From Desulfonauticus submarinus (GTDB lineage Bacteria; Desulfobacterota; Desulfovibrionia; Desulfovibrionales; Desulfonatronovibrionaceae), in the NCBI RefSeq assembly GCF_900104045.1, contig NZ_FNIN01000001.1, positions 62,001 to 126,000 of the forward strand: a stretch of DNA of 64,000 nucleotides, read 5' to 3'. The position numbers were made by a program, and so were the translations under genes. Positions 23,636 to 29,224 of the stretch are shown here, one piece after another (the stretch's first letter is position 1; every line of letters starts with the position of its first letter). The notes below the pieces were generated by a model. It was given only the letters and a program-made list of their open reading frames with translations. It was not told where the DNA came from and did not search any database.

Positions 23636-25069
23636 ATGGCTCTTCAGTTGAAACAACAATTAAAACTTAGTCAGCAGCTAGTAATGACTCCTCAACTTCA
23701 GCAGGCAATCAAGCTGCTGCAGCTTTCGAGAATAGAATTAGTAGATTTAGTTCAACAGGAGCTGTTAGAAAATCCTCTTTTAGAGGAAGCTGAGAATAAT
23801 GAGAGTATTGAAAAGATACAAAAGGAAGAAGATGAATTTTCTGAATTTAAAGTAGAAGAAGAAAGTTTAATTAAAAATGCCGAATGGGAAAATTATTTGG
23901 GCCAGTTTTCTAGTTTTTCTAAGGATTATAAGGAATTGGAAATTCCAGAAGAAATACTTTCTGTAGAAGCTAGGTATGCTCCTAAGCCTAGTTTAGAAGG
24001 TCATCTGCTGTGGCAATTAAATTTAGCTCCTTTTACAGAGAAACAAAAGGAAATAGGTAGAGAAATTATAGGTAATCTTGATTCGAGAGGATATCTGACA
24101 GTAAATACTTCAGAGATTGCATCATCTTTAGATGTAAAAGAGGAGGAAGTAGAAGAAGTCTTAAAAAGGATACAACAGTTTGATCCTATTGGGATAGCAA
24201 GTAGAAACTTAAAAGAGTGTCTTTTGATTCAATTAAAACATTTTGACTATGATGATCCTATATTAAATTTGCTAGTAGAGCATCATTTAGAGGATATAGA
24301 AAAAAGAAAGATTGATAATATATTAAAAAAATTAGGTATTTCAAAAGAAAAGTTACATGAATATATAGAGATATTAAAGTCATTAGATCCTTATCCTGGA
24401 TCTCAATATTCTAATGAAGATGTTGTTTATATTAGTCCAGATGTATATGTGTTTAAATATGAAGATGAGTTTGTTATTTTATTAAATGAAGATGGTATTC
24501 CTAATCTACGTTTAAATCCTTTATTTGAAGAAATAGAAATTAAGAGGGGGCGTAAAAAAAAGAACTCAAGTAAAGATATAGAATATCTACAAGAAAAAAT
24601 GCGTTCTGCTGTTTGGTTGATTAAGAGTTTACAGCAAAGGCAAAGGACCTTGTATAAGGTAGTAGAAAGTATACTTTATTTTCAAAAAGATTTTTTTGAA
24701 AAAGGTGTTTCTTGTTTAAAACCTCTTACATTACGGGATGTGGCAGAGTATATTGGTATGCACGAATCTACTATTAGCAGAGTAACAAGCAATAAATATA
24801 TTTCTACTCCTTTTGGCTTATTTGAGTTAAAATTCTTTTTTAATAGTGGACTTAGTACCAAAGATGGTAGTAATGTAGGTTCTGAGAGTATTAGAGCTAG
24901 AATAAAAGAGATTATTGATGCAGAAGATAAAAAAAAGCCTTTAAGTGATGAGGCTATTGCCAAAAGATTACAAAAAGAGTTAGGAGTTAGTATAGCAAGA
25001 AGAACGGTTGCAAAATATAGAGCTGCTTTAAATATTCCTTCTTCTTCAAGGAGGAAGAAGATATTTTAA
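23636..25069 (+). CDS. rpoN: RNA polymerase sigma-54 factor
   Basis: 477 residues. N-terminal activator-interaction region MALQLKQQLKLSQQLVMTPQ with the Q/L-rich pattern, an acidic linker, the core-binding domain, an HTH (TLRDVAEYIGMHESTISRVT), and the RpoN box ARRTVAKYRAALNIPSS near the end. The conserved neighbourhood rpoN-hpf-ptsN-rapZ supports the call. About 134 bp separates it from lptB, so it may also have its own promoter, but I could not identify convincing hexamers there. Confidence 0.98.
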   Translation: MALQLKQQLKLSQQLVMTPQLQQAIKLLQLSRIELVDLVQQELLENPLLEEAENNESIEKIQKEEDEFSEFKVEEESLIKNAEWENYLGQFSSFSKDYKELEIPEEILSVEARYAPKPSLEGHLLWQLNLAPFTEKQKEIGREIIGNLDSRGYLTVNTSEIASSLDVKEEEVEEVLKRIQQFDPIGIASRNLKECLLIQLKHFDYDDPILNLLVEHHLEDIEKRKIDNILKKLGISKEKLHEYIEILKSLDPYPGSQYSNEDVVYISPDVYVFKYEDEFVILLNEDGIPNLRLNPLFEEIEIKRGRKKKNSSKDIEYLQEKMRSAVWLIKSLQQRQRTLYKVVESILYFQKDFFEKGVSCLKPLTLRDVAEYIGMHESTISRVTSNKYISTPFGLFELKFFFNSGLSTKDGSNVGSESIRARIKEIIDAEDKKKPLSDEAIAKRLQKELGVSIARRTVAKYRAALNIPSSSRRKKIF

Positions 25070-25092
25070 CCTTAAACTGTTAGGAGGCGTGT

Positions 25093-25632
25093 ATGCAAAT
25101 TAAATTTAATTTTAAAAATTTTGAGCCGTCTGATCATTTAAAAAGTTATGCTCAAACTAGATTTGAAAAATTAGCCAAATATCTAAGCAAAAACGATAAT
25201 CCTGAACTTCAAGTGAACTTTGAAGTAGAAAAATATAGACATATAATAGAGGCAATTTTAACTGCTAAAAATTTACATATTTCTGCTACAGAAGAAAATG
25301 AGGATATGTATGCTAGTGTAGACCTGGTTTTAGATAAACTAGAAGCTCAGGTTAGAAAAATAAGAGAAAAGGCAAAGGATAAACATAAAAGTAAAAGTAA
25401 GACTAAAGTTAGAATGGATATTATTAAATTTAATAAAGAAGAAAAAAGTGGTCCTATTATTGAAAAAACAGATCATTTTGAACCAAAACCAATGAGTGTG
25501 GAAGAGGCTGCCTTGCAGTTGGATACTTTAAAATATGACTTTTTAGTATTTTTAAATGCAGAGAATGAAAGGGTAAATGTTATTTATAAAAGAAAAGATG
25601 GAAATTTTGGTTTAATTGATCCAGGAATATAA
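25093..25632 (+). CDS. hpf: Ribosome hibernation promoting factor, long form
   Basis: 179 residues, the long form. The N-terminal domain (about 1-100) has the S30AE/YfiA fold pattern and a basic stretch KDKHKSKSKTKVR. The C-terminal dimerisation domain starts near residue 120 with KPMSVEEAALQLDTLKYDFL and ends VIYKRKDGNFGLIDPG. Long HPF alone can dimerise 70S ribosomes into 100S particles during starvation. Strong GGAGG before ATG 25093. Confidence 0.96.
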   Translation: MQIKFNFKNFEPSDHLKSYAQTRFEKLAKYLSKNDNPELQVNFEVEKYRHIIEAILTAKNLHISATEENEDMYASVDLVLDKLEAQVRKIREKAKDKHKSKSKTKVRMDIIKFNKEEKSGPIIEKTDHFEPKPMSVEEAALQLDTLKYDFLVFLNAENERVNVIYKRKDGNFGLIDPGI

Positions 25633-25635
25633 TTT

Positions 25636-26085
25636 ATGAAGTTATCTAATTATATTAATGAAAAATTAATTATTTCAAACCTTTCTGCCAGGACTAAAGT
25701 AGATGTCCTGGCAGAAATGGTTAAGTATGTGGAGAAATTATATCCATCTCTTCAAGATAAAAATGTCTATGAACTATTAGTTGATAGAGAAAAATTGGGC
25801 ACTACAGGCATTGGCAATGGAGTTGCTATCCCCCATACTAAGCTAGAAGGAATAGATAGAGTAATTTTATTAGTAGCTCGAAGTATTGAAGGAGTAGACT
25901 TTGAATCATTAGATCAGAATCCAGTGCACATTTTTTTCTTATTGCTTGCTCCTGAAGAGAATCTTGGAGAGCATCTTAGGATTTTAGCCTATATATCTCG
26001 TCTTTTACAAGACGAAAGTTTTAGAAAAGCATTTTTAGAAGCTCAAGATAAAGGTGAATTGTATATGCTTTTAAAAGGTGTCTAA
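25636..26085 (+). CDS. ptsN: PTS EIIA-Ntr regulatory protein
   Basis: 149 residues, PTS_EIIA_2 domain. The phosphorylatable His67 lies in GIGNGVAIPHTKLEG, and FFLLLAPEENLGEHLRILA is a typical family segment. Regulatory phosphocarrier, not a sugar transporter. 3 nt after hpf; its stop overlaps the rapZ start (TAATG). Confidence 0.95.
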   Translation: MKLSNYINEKLIISNLSARTKVDVLAEMVKYVEKLYPSLQDKNVYELLVDREKLGTTGIGNGVAIPHTKLEGIDRVILLVARSIEGVDFESLDQNPVHIFFLLLAPEENLGEHLRILAYISRLLQDESFRKAFLEAQDKGELYMLLKGV

Positions 26086-26963
26086 TGAATTATACATTTT
26101 CTCTTGTTCTTATAAGTGGGTTATCTGGTGCTGGTAAAAGTACAGCGTTGAAAGTTTTTGAAGATTTGGGTTTTTTTTGTATTGATGGATTGCCTTTTTC
26201 TTTAATAAAACCTTTAATTGAGTTGTTTGAACAAAATTCTCTTAAAAAATATCGTGGTCTTGCCTTAGGAATTGATATTAGACAATTTGATTTTGGGTCT
26301 GGTTGGGATGAATTAGAGTCAACTCTTAAAAAGAGAAATGTTTATTTTGAACTTATATTTTTAGAGGCCAGTGAAGAGATAATAGTTAAAAGATATTTTA
26401 CCACAAGACGTCCCCATCCCTTAAGTAGTGAGGGTAAAGGATTAGAAAAAGCTATTTTGGAAGAAAAACAAAAACTTTCTGTGCTTAGAGAAAAGGCCCA
26501 TTTGGTTATTGATACTACATTTTTTTCTATTCATGATTTAAGACGCACTTTACAAGAGAAATGGATATGTCATGATAGTGTTTGTGCAGGGCTTCGAGTT
26601 CATCTTATTTCTTTTGGATTTAAGTATGGTGTCCCTTTGGAAGCAGATATTGTCCTTGATTTAAGATTTTTGCCAAATCCTTATTTTAAGGAAGAGCTTA
26701 GGGATTTATCTGGTCAAGAAAAGATAGTCCAAGAGTTTATTTATGGAAATAAGGAATCTAAAAAATTTTTAGAAAAATTAAAAGAGTTTTTAGAGTTTAC
26801 TTTACCTCTTTATGCTAAGGAGGGAAGGTATAGACTTACCATAGGTTTTGGTTGTACTGGAGGAAGACATAGATCTGTTGCTACTACAGAATTAATAGCA
26901 TTGTTTTTAAGAGAGAAAAAATATTTAATATCAGTAGAACATCGTCATTTGGAGTTAGGTTAA
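26085..26963 (+). CDS. rapZ: RNase adapter protein RapZ (P-loop, YvcJ family)
   Basis: 292 residues. Walker A GLSGAGKS at residues 12-19, FFCIDGLP, IDIRQF, the arginine cluster TTRRPHPL, and the C-terminal signature IGFGCTGGRHRSV. In E. coli RapZ binds small RNAs and controls glucosamine-6-phosphate synthase mRNA; in other phyla its role is less clear. Its place among PTS genes is conserved. Confidence 0.96.
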   Translation: MNYTFSLVLISGLSGAGKSTALKVFEDLGFFCIDGLPFSLIKPLIELFEQNSLKKYRGLALGIDIRQFDFGSGWDELESTLKKRNVYFELIFLEASEEIIVKRYFTTRRPHPLSSEGKGLEKAILEEKQKLSVLREKAHLVIDTTFFSIHDLRRTLQEKWICHDSVCAGLRVHLISFGFKYGVPLEADIVLDLRFLPNPYFKEELRDLSGQEKIVQEFIYGNKESKKFLEKLKEFLEFTLPLYAKEGRYRLTIGFGCTGGRHRSVATTELIALFLREKKYLISVEHRHLELG

Positions 26964-26964
26964 A

Positions 26965-27375
26965 ATGGTTGGATTTGTAATTGTTACTCATGGTAAATTT
27001 GGAGATGGACTTTTGAATGCAGCTGAAATGATAGTAGGGGATATTCCACACTGTACTGTTATTAGTGTGGATGCTAAAAGACCAATAGAGCAAATTTTAA
27101 AAGAAATTGAGCAGTCTGTTAAACTCACAGATAATGGAGATGGGGTATTGGTTTTTACTGATATGTTTGGTGGAACGCCTACGACATTGAGTCTTTCTTT
27201 ATTGGGTAAGAAGTCTAATTTAGAAGTTATTACAGGTGTTAATCTACCTATACTTATAAAAGCTGCTACCTCTAGAAATTTGTCTCTTTTAGAGTTGGCG
27301 AGTGAATTAAAAAAGGCTGGAAGGCAGGGGATTAAAGTTGCTGGAGAAATATTAAAAAACCCAGTAAACAGTTAA
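26965..27375 (+). CDS. PTS mannose/sorbose-family EIIA component
   Basis: 136 residues, EIIA-Man fold. His9 in GFVIVTHGKFG is the phosphorylation site; VFTDMFGGTPTTLSL is the second family signature. It starts 1 nt after rapZ and is followed by EIIB and EIIC genes. It would accept phosphate from HPr, which is not in the window. Confidence 0.93.
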   Translation: MVGFVIVTHGKFGDGLLNAAEMIVGDIPHCTVISVDAKRPIEQILKEIEQSVKLTDNGDGVLVFTDMFGGTPTTLSLSLLGKKSNLEVITGVNLPILIKAATSRNLSLLELASELKKAGRQGIKVAGEILKNPVNS

Positions 27376-27395: not shown

Positions 27396-27845
27396 ATGTG
27401 GGTTAGGATAGATAATAGATTGCTTCATGGCCAGGTATTAGAAACATGGCTTCCTTATGTGAATGCAAAAACTATCCTTGTAGTAAATGATCCTTTAGCA
27501 GCTAATACCATTCAACAAGATATAATGCGTCTAGCTGTTCCAAGAGGAATAGATATTTATTTTCTTTCTTTAAGACAAGTTTTGACTTTTTTAAAAAATA
27601 AAAAATGTACAGATGCTCTGGTTCTATTTGCTAATTGTGCTGATGCAAAGATAGCCTTTGACAGGGGATTTACTTTTAAGATATTGAATATTGGTAATCT
27701 TCATTATGAACCAGGCAAAGAACAAGTTTGTGATCATATTGCTTTAAGCAAGGAGGATATTTCTTGTTTACGTTATTTAATTAGAAAGGGAGTAAGCTTA
27801 GATTTTAGGTGCGTTCCCCATAAACAGGTACAGGTTACTTTATGA
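27396..27845 (+). CDS. PTS mannose/sorbose-family EIIB component
   Basis: 149 residues. The EIIB active site RIDNRLLHGQV contains phospho-His11. VVNDPLAANTIQQDIMRLAVP and LNIGNLHYEPGK follow the family pattern. The stop codon overlaps the start of the EIIC frame in an ATGA arrangement, which shows that EIIC was meant to be translated with it. Confidence 0.93.
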   Translation: MWVRIDNRLLHGQVLETWLPYVNAKTILVVNDPLAANTIQQDIMRLAVPRGIDIYFLSLRQVLTFLKNKKCTDALVLFANCADAKIAFDRGFTFKILNIGNLHYEPGKEQVCDHIALSKEDISCLRYLIRKGVSLDFRCVPHKQVQVTL

Positions 27846-28554
27846 GCTTTTTAAACTATCAAATAATTCTTTTAATTAGTTTTTTTTTGCTCTTTTTTCT
27901 GCCTTTCGTTTTCAAATCAATATAGGATTTTTTGAACGACCCTTAGTTTTATCTTTTTTTTGGTCTCTTGTTTTTAAAGATAACCTTCCTTATCTAAATA
28001 TAGGAATATTTTTTGAGCTTTTTTGGTTAGATCTTTTTCCTGTTGGAACATTTGTGCCTCCACAACATATTGTTTCTACTATAATCAGTCTATTTATAGT
28101 ATATACTTTCAAAGTAAAAAGCTTAAATCATATTTTATTTATTATTATTATGGCTAATTTATTTAGTTATTTTTGGGATTGGTTTGAAGTTAAAACTAGG
28201 CAATGGAATAATTATATTTATAATAAAATATTAAAAAGTTTAAAATTACGTTCTGAGATAAATATGTCTAATATAATATTATCTTCTATTGGAAAGATGT
28301 TTATAATGAATTTTATAATCTTTTTTGTTGTTTTGATTTTTAGTTTTTATATATACGAATATATATCTTTTTATATACCACAAACAAAAATTTTAACTTG
28401 GAATGTTTTATTTATTATATCGTTAGTTGGTGCTGTATTAGGATTACGCTTACAAAAGTTATATATAGTTTTATCTTTAGGTATTATGTTTATTCTTTTT
28501 TGTTATTTAATTGTTTGGAATGGTTGGATAAATATAAATATCCTAAACCTATAA
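27842..28554 (+). pseudogene. PTS mannose/sorbose-family EIIC, frameshifted in a run of nine T
   Basis: ATG 27842 overlaps the EIIB stop (ATGA). This frame encodes MSFLNYQIILLISFF and then runs to a TAG at 27923-27925. From the T-run onwards a neighbouring frame encodes a full EIIC: ALFSAFRFQINIGFFERPLV, FFELFWLDLFPVGTFVPPQ, then several membrane helices to a stop at 28552-28554. The two frames meet in T9 (27880-27888). One extra T would give a continuous 237-residue protein, close to the family length. Either the gene is inactivated, or the run is expanded by slippage, or it is a sequencing error. The last 65 bp overlap the 3' end of rsmE on the other strand. No EIID gene follows. Confidence 0.85.
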
Positions 28555-29224
28555 TAGTTGCTGTCTCTATTCTTAAAATAGAATTACCTAAAGATATAGG
28601 TAAAAATTTTTGCTCAATTAAAAACTTATATTCCTGGGGACAAAATCCACCTTCTGGACCGATTATTACTAAAATGTCTTTTCTAAATTTGAAGTTGGAG
28701 ATAAGATTTTTTTTTTCTTTTTCCCAAAAGAAGATCTTATTCTCAATAGTATCATAGCTCGAACAGAGATCTCTTAAACTAGAATAGAGTTTAATTTGAG
28801 GGATCCATAAATTTTGAGATTGTTTGGCCGCAGAAATTATTTTTTTTTCCCAAGAAGATTTTTTTTCTTTAGGAAAAGGTGGAGAATATGTTCCGGGCCA
28901 AAATATTATTTCCCAACATTGAAGTTCTACACATTTTTCTAAAATAAGATCTCTTTTATTTGCTCTTTGCCATGCTAATCCTACGATAATTTTACTTTGA
29001 GGTTCAGGATGCACTTTTATATTTAAACATTCTAATTCAATTTGTTTTTTTTGAATGTTTTTTACTTTAAAAAGACCTTCTTTTCCTTGGCCATCAAAAA
29101 GTCTTATAATATCCCCTTTTTTACCTCTTAATACTTTTAAAAAGTGATAACTTTCCTCTTTGTCCAAATGAAAAGGGGGCGTCCATTTTTGAGGACAAAG
29201 ATAAAAAGAATTTAACCTAGGCAT
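28490..29224 (-). CDS. rsmE: 16S rRNA m3U1498 methyltransferase
   Basis: 244 residues. SPOUT-class methyltransferase with the RsmE pattern: LEKCVELQCWEI, a SAAKQS variant of AAEQS, the SAM-binding knot segment VIIGPEGGF, and SLGNSILRIETATIIGL. It methylates U1498 in the small-subunit decoding region. First 50-70 residues form the PUA-like domain. It lies 7 nt downstream of gcvT and its C-terminal end overlaps the EIIC gene convergently. Confidence 0.94.
   Translation of the reverse strand: MPRLNSFYLCPQKWTPPFHLDKEESYHFLKVLRGKKGDIIRLFDGQGKEGLFKVKNIQKKQIELECLNIKVHPEPQSKIIVGLAWQRANKRDLILEKCVELQCWEIIFWPGTYSPPFPKEKKSSWEKKIISAAKQSQNLWIPQIKLYSSLRDLCSSYDTIENKIFFWEKEKKNLISNFKFRKDILVIIGPEGGFCPQEYKFLIEQKFLPISLGNSILRIETATIIGLGYLYLSNHSKQLNNKKE

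Follow-up and report, generated by a model that had tools for sequence, protein, structure and literature searches.

The gene for the membrane subunit EIIC of a phosphotransferase system (PTS) is divided between two reading frames in the window (the whole stretch of 64,000 nt that was analysed; its host genome comprises 2.1 Mb on 23 contigs). The break coincides with a run of nine T residues, which raises the question whether this gene has been lost, is switched on and off, or is expressed across the frame break.

The split EIIC gene and its neighbourhood

The features of the locus are as follows.

23636..26963, + strand: rpoN, hpf, ptsN and rapZ, upstream genes of the same conserved cluster, by gene order in relatives
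26965..27375, + strand: EIIA, mannose family (PF03610, 94.2 bits), a neighbour kept in 9 of 9 relatives examined
27396..27845, + strand: EIIB, sorbose subfamily (PF03830, 148.8 bits), its stop overlapping the EIIC start
27842..27925, + strand: 0-frame leader ORF of 27 aa, hydrophobic (MSFLNYQIILLIS...), giving EIIC residues 1-13 or else stopping at TAG 27923-27925
27877..27879, + strand: TAG in the EIIC frame, abutting the tract on its 5' side (frame 1 translation *FFFALF)
27880..27888, + strand: T9 tract, context AG-T9-G, invariant in 205 split genes
27880..28554, + strand: EIIC body in the shifted frame, 224 aa (codons 27880-28551) plus stop (28552-28554); PF03609 EII-Sor, with ManY relatives by profile and fold

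The initial annotation had described an EIIC start that overlaps the EIIB stop, a frame that is split at the T9 tract with the body in the neighbouring frame, and a protein of 237 residues upon addition of one T. All of this was confirmed: the ATG at 27842 overlaps the TGA of EIIB (ATGA, 27842-27845), and 13 leader and 224 body residues add up to 237. No upstream start can serve the EIIC frame, because the TAG directly precedes the tract; a ribosome that initiates upstream could therefore read the body only after changing frame. Downstream, the nearest start in the list for this frame is GTG 28054, with which the body would lose its first ~58 residues, the conserved RP and ELFWLD motifs among them.

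A T9 tract alone is unremarkable here, since such tracts are not rare in the window, which has a GC content of 31% and contains six T9 and one T10. What exceeds chance, according to the comparison with relatives, is the conservation of T9 among them rather than the tract itself.

The gene order lptB-rpoN-hpf-ptsN-rapZ-EIIA-EIIB-EIIC is conserved in the nine relatives compared, in one of which (L279) no match for ptsN or lptB was found. On the minus strand, rsmE (28490-29224) is convergent to EIIC and the 3' ends of the two genes overlap by 65 nt (28490-28554). The coding strand of rsmE carries an A10 and an A9 run (28707-28716 and 28840-28848), its frame being nonetheless unbroken. If the polymerase slips at these runs, a share of the RsmE transcripts would be frameshifted.

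Identity of EIIC and completeness of the PTS

The EIIC body matches the Pfam family PF03609 (EII-Sor) with 29.6 bits at a cut-off of 26.3. With the leader residues added, the match scores 30.5 bits and is extended toward the N-terminus; for this family search of leader plus body alone, the peptide was read through as residues. A profile comparison relates the body to ManY (7dyr/6k1h; E 3e-5). The model of EIIC has a pLDDT of 86.9, and the top nine PDB matches in a fold search are Man-PTS entries (or 6k1h, ManYZ by profile) with probabilities of 0.95-1.00, while E-values of at least 0.008 and TM scores of 0.43-0.54 make the fold support moderate. By its profile and the distant ManY match, and moderately by fold, the body is thus classified as EIIC of a mannose/sorbose-family PTS. 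As the first helix of the model begins at the truncated end, we infer that the leader would supply the first half of the first membrane helix.

EIIA and EIIB adjoin EIIC, and one EIID and one HPr are encoded 0.3 kb apart on another contig, so that the PTS looks complete from its genes, Enzyme I being left aside.

The T9 tract across the Desulfovibrionales

EIIC was sought in whole genomes with the body as query. It was found in 222 of the 297 genomes that had been sampled from the order Desulfovibrionales. Among the first 115 loci, which range from 30% to 69% GC, 113 have exactly T9 at the same codon position. For a total of 224 loci, the tract is T9 in the same phase in 206 cases, T10 in four and T8 in five, and nine loci have no such tract; two of these nine (L265, L268) are contig fragments that end short of the region. 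The split form occurs in 205 of 221 analysable genes, covering 43 genera and 6 families from AT-rich to GC-rich, and the median 0-frame product is 28 aa (203 split genes). Carriers of T9 include Desulfonauticus sp. 38_4375 (LGER01000021.1), Desulfothermus okinawensis JCM 13304, and MAGs of Desulfonatronovibrio and Desulfonatronospira. Shift site and split frame are hence conserved beyond close relatives, which by sequence comparison marks EIIC as a candidate programmed frameshift gene.

A simple pseudogene or an assembly error that is confined to this genome would be suggested by a split gene in an AT-rich window where T9 is common. However, the same T9 split is found in 205 genes, from drafts as well as from single-contig genomes such as G040, G026 and G087, and the EIIC bodies are open over the order. 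A genome-specific lesion was rejected, as the relatives share the split, and we assign practically no probability to this reading. The initial annotation had also considered a recent loss of EIIC, and had proposed to align the tract in relatives and to look there for further stops and deletions. Within the order, 205 of the 221 genes analysed turn out to have exactly T9, the same split frame and an open body, which contradicts a recent loss.

Replication-level phase variation, with T9 as the OFF and T10 as the ON state between which populations switch, was likewise among the earlier proposals. T10 is indeed in frame in four genomes (L181, L187, L222, L269). With switching, however, T10 and T8 would be expected in many assemblies, while T9 with the split is seen in 205 of 221 genes, T10 is rare and the species compared do not show the expected mixture of lengths. 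Moreover, the product is no surface antigen but a metabolic permease, encoded by a single gene copy within a conserved operon. We regard switching as very improbable. Of the three readings of the tract in the initial annotation, polymerase slippage is strongly supported by the comparison and recent loss is contradicted by it, and ON/OFF switching is disfavoured by the tract lengths between species.

Various near-complete genomes from four genera (g12, g26, g29, g31), many of them small (1.4-2.9 Mb), have no recognisable EIIC. This suggests that the permease has been lost in some lineages.

Coupling of the tract to the start frame

An ATG or GTG in the 0-frame is located 9-22 codons upstream in 203 of the 205 split genes, and two also have a start in the EIIC frame. 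Two split genes have no listed 0-frame start: L267, and L083, whose contig ends there. For each of the 16 genes that are not split, the EIIC frame itself contains a start. Among these are genes in a single frame via T10 (L181, L187, L222), via A+T9 (L099), via T8 with a fitting frame (L049, L168, L221, and L263 with a C+T8 run), and without such a tract (L020, L170, L232, L238, L252, L260, L266).

The start frame bears on the proposal that EIIC has an independent start in the shifted frame, by re-initiation or at a non-standard start codon, so that no frameshift is needed. Some ATG, GTG or TTG upstream in the EIIC frame exists in 57 of 206 T9 genes, but there is none in the other 149. In the window the TAG abuts the tract and GTG 28054 would drop ~58 residues, and an independent start leaves the invariant T9 unexplained. 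Tabulating start frame against split state led to the rejection of alternative starts, to which hardly any probability attaches.

Two loci are peculiar. L259 (genome G091, T8) fits neither class cleanly: its main ATG lies in the wrong frame, an internal ATG being the sole match, and its T8 would require the removal instead of the addition of a base, or a mistake in the assembly. In L269 (genome G206) T10 is in frame and the body is broken off after 45 codons, so that it is possibly a true pseudogene.

On the EIIC tree, a minimum of 13 changes between the split and the single-frame state is required. Since the single-frame genes are scattered among the split ones, the single-frame forms appear to be derived by repeated loss, and the split form appears ancestral to the Desulfovibrionales. 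Single-frame genes have emerged several times, and T9 still predominates. The arrangement is not indispensable, because several lineages have dispensed with it. The 16 single-frame relatives are ready natural controls. Outside the order, 19 loci were compared that belong to other families within the phylum, and none has more than six T in a row near the site. The N-terminus could be placed in 18 of them, each with a start in the EIIC frame; the remaining one (L152) is aligned in its C-terminal part only.

Conservation of nucleotides rather than protein

Across the 205 split genes, conservation reaches 100% at each of the nine T but lies at 0.3-0.85 for most of the bases around them. T1 is the 0-frame wobble base of an Ala, Gly, Ser or Cys codon, and in comparable NNY codons for these residues T is found at 13% (genes with GC >= 0.55). 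Away from the tract, these genes encode Phe by TTT in 39% and by TTC in 61% of cases. The wobble positions at both ends of the tract are thus invariantly T, even though C is favoured elsewhere in these genes. For all four wobble bases to be T, the chance is about 10^-67 when one genome per genus is taken from 32 genera, a value that is indicative only as the genera are related.

The encoded Phe-Phe-Phe is gone in most of the 16 non-split genes. Tractless single-frame members replace it, e.g. by V-F-F, S-L-Y, C-L-F, C-L-Y or L-F-F, which argues that the T run is not kept for the protein. A protein constraint on Phe-Phe-Phe was rejected on these grounds. The comparison presents the tract as an old trait of the order that selection maintains at the nucleotide level, and not as a mishap in one species. 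T9 tracts are rare in three closed or nearly closed GC-rich genomes, with 8-9 per 3.6-4.8 Mb (e.g. eight in the 3.8 Mb of G092 and nine in the 4.8 Mb of G244).

Ribosomal frameshifting or transcriptional slippage

The tract also holds the 0-frame heptamers U_UUU_UUU and U_UUU_UUG. By programmed -1 ribosomal frameshifting, with ...UUU UUU UUG slipping one base back, the same product would be obtained from U9 transcripts. The slippery U_UUU_UUG (U_UUU_UUA in four genes) is in the 0-frame of the split genes, the product keeps the spacing of the family, and in E. coli low-level shifting is seen at many heptamers that have no stimulator (PMC4066793). Yet U_UUU_UUG requires just T4-T9 and the G, while T1, with an expectation of 13% T, is invariant as well and the tract is held at a length of nine. 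The conservation of T1 and of the length could partly be explained by heptamers that overlap along the entire tract.

No stabilised structure was detected after the tract, 59-70% of the gene-body windows being more stable (pseudoknots left out). SD-like elements are barely above control positions (15% vs 12%), though family f3 has many (13 of 17). With a less structured downstream region and a near-control frequency of SD-like elements, the usual, though not obligatory, stimulators of -1 frameshifting are not evident, and neither downstream stem-loops nor SD stimulators emerged as a general feature of the split genes. We judge ribosomal shifting as the source of EIIC to be unlikely; slippage and ribosomal shifting may both contribute.

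Transcriptional slippage that adds a U accounts for the conservation of the whole tract, including T1-T3, and for its length of nine. The RNA:DNA hybrid in transcription has 8-10 bp, which is matched by the length of T9. What is seen at this site is a homopolymer of about nine or more A/T that is conserved as nucleotides, as is expected for a candidate slippage site. In E. coli and Buchnera, insertions become exponentially more frequent as A/T runs lengthen, up to 9-11 (PMC5574713), and there is selection against A/T runs from length nine in a large share of bacterial genomes (PMC1088944).

Judged from this comparison, the cell almost certainly shifts frame at T9 on purpose to make EIIC, and we infer that the shift occurs at transcription. 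Taken together, we consider it highly probable that functional EIIC is expressed only via a programmed frameshift which is ancestral in the order, with transcriptional slippage on T9 as the most likely mechanism.

Proposed mode of expression and its consequences

Under transcriptional slippage, ribosomes would start at the ATG that is coupled to the EIIB stop. On faithful U9 transcripts they would produce a hydrophobic peptide of ~27 residues and then meet a stop. Backward slippage of RNA polymerase on T9 would provide a fraction of transcripts with an extra U, and these would encode full-length EIIC. The slippage fraction would thereby hold EIIC at a fixed, low proportion relative to EIIA and EIIB, the cytoplasmic products of the same operon. 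To make the membrane subunit at such a ratio from the same mRNA may well be the purpose of the arrangement.

The slippage site might, in addition, act as a conserved regulatory valve, where the U10 fraction, and hence the EIIC level and transport, tracks the growth state through the UTP level and elongation speed. We consider this rather doubtful. If true, it would represent an order-wide control of a PTS transporter that is based on transcription fidelity. On U9 transcripts, the untranslated EIIC region of ~600 nt may be exposed to Rho, which would change the expression of downstream genes.

A gene on the same strand follows 3' of EIIC in some relatives (L275 8164-9114, L277 7864-8784) and resembles, by eye, a DHH-family manganese pyrophosphatase. 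Polarity from untranslated EIIC could reach this gene.

Mechanical ORF calling of EIIC yields an internal ORF of 183 aa in L277 and of 166 aa in the window. Annotations will therefore probably list EIIC as a truncated gene or a pseudogene, and reconstructions of the PTS in sulfate reducers may be wrong for this reason.

Comparison with known systems

No report of an EIIC frameshift in Desulfovibrionales was found in the open literature (supplements, such as the GeneTack clusters, and subscription papers were outside its scope), nor was a paper on Desulfovibrio and transcriptional slippage with frameshift or PTS. Papers that join slippage and the phosphotransferase system appear to concern other topics, by title and abstract. 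Neither Antonov 2013 (PMC3711429) nor the available part of Atkins 2016 (PMC5009743) mentions PTS or Desulfovibrio. An unlabelled earlier listing of the EIIC frameshift, e.g. in GeneTack clusters, is possible. Programmed slippage is already known from mxiE, dnaX and IS elements; an order-wide case in a housekeeping transporter was not found in the open literature. Slippage as described in the papers found concerns mobile elements, plasmid genes of pathogens, dnaX, and interrupted genes that are rescued. If a single-copy housekeeping permease relies on a frame change and is kept base-perfect over 43 genera, this would show that slippage can be a stable, selected mode of expression for an ordinary metabolic gene.

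In Shigella mxiE, a U inserted in a U run joins two ORFs (PMC1088944). EIIC would resemble the Shigella flexneri case, where an extra U aligns a short first ORF with the second one, the long product being functional (PMC1088944, PMC5009743). However, mxiE is a plasmid-borne virulence regulator in one pathogen group, while EIIC is a vertically inherited housekeeping permease across an order of environmental sulfate reducers. With dnaX of Thermus thermophilus (A9), EIIC shares a nine-base homopolymer in a chromosomal gene, and slippage in dnaX sets the product ratios (PMC1088944). The direction is reversed: the faithful dnaX transcript gives the full-length product and slippage the shorter one, whereas full-length EIIC would need the slip.

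A frame change at a homopolymer that joins two ORFs would also be common to EIIC and to insertion sequences with A/T-run slippage or -1 frameshifting (PMC1088944, PMC3711429), but EIIC is non-mobile, single-copy, and resides at a fixed locus (rpoN-hpf-ptsN-rapZ-EIIA-EIIB-EIIC). Finally, homopolymer frameshifts are suppressed by RNA polymerase infidelity in tssM of Citrobacter rodentium (PMC4256274) and in endosymbiont genes (cited in PMC5009743). Such cases are described as rescues of interrupted genes, while in EIIC the exact T9 has been kept in 43 genera.
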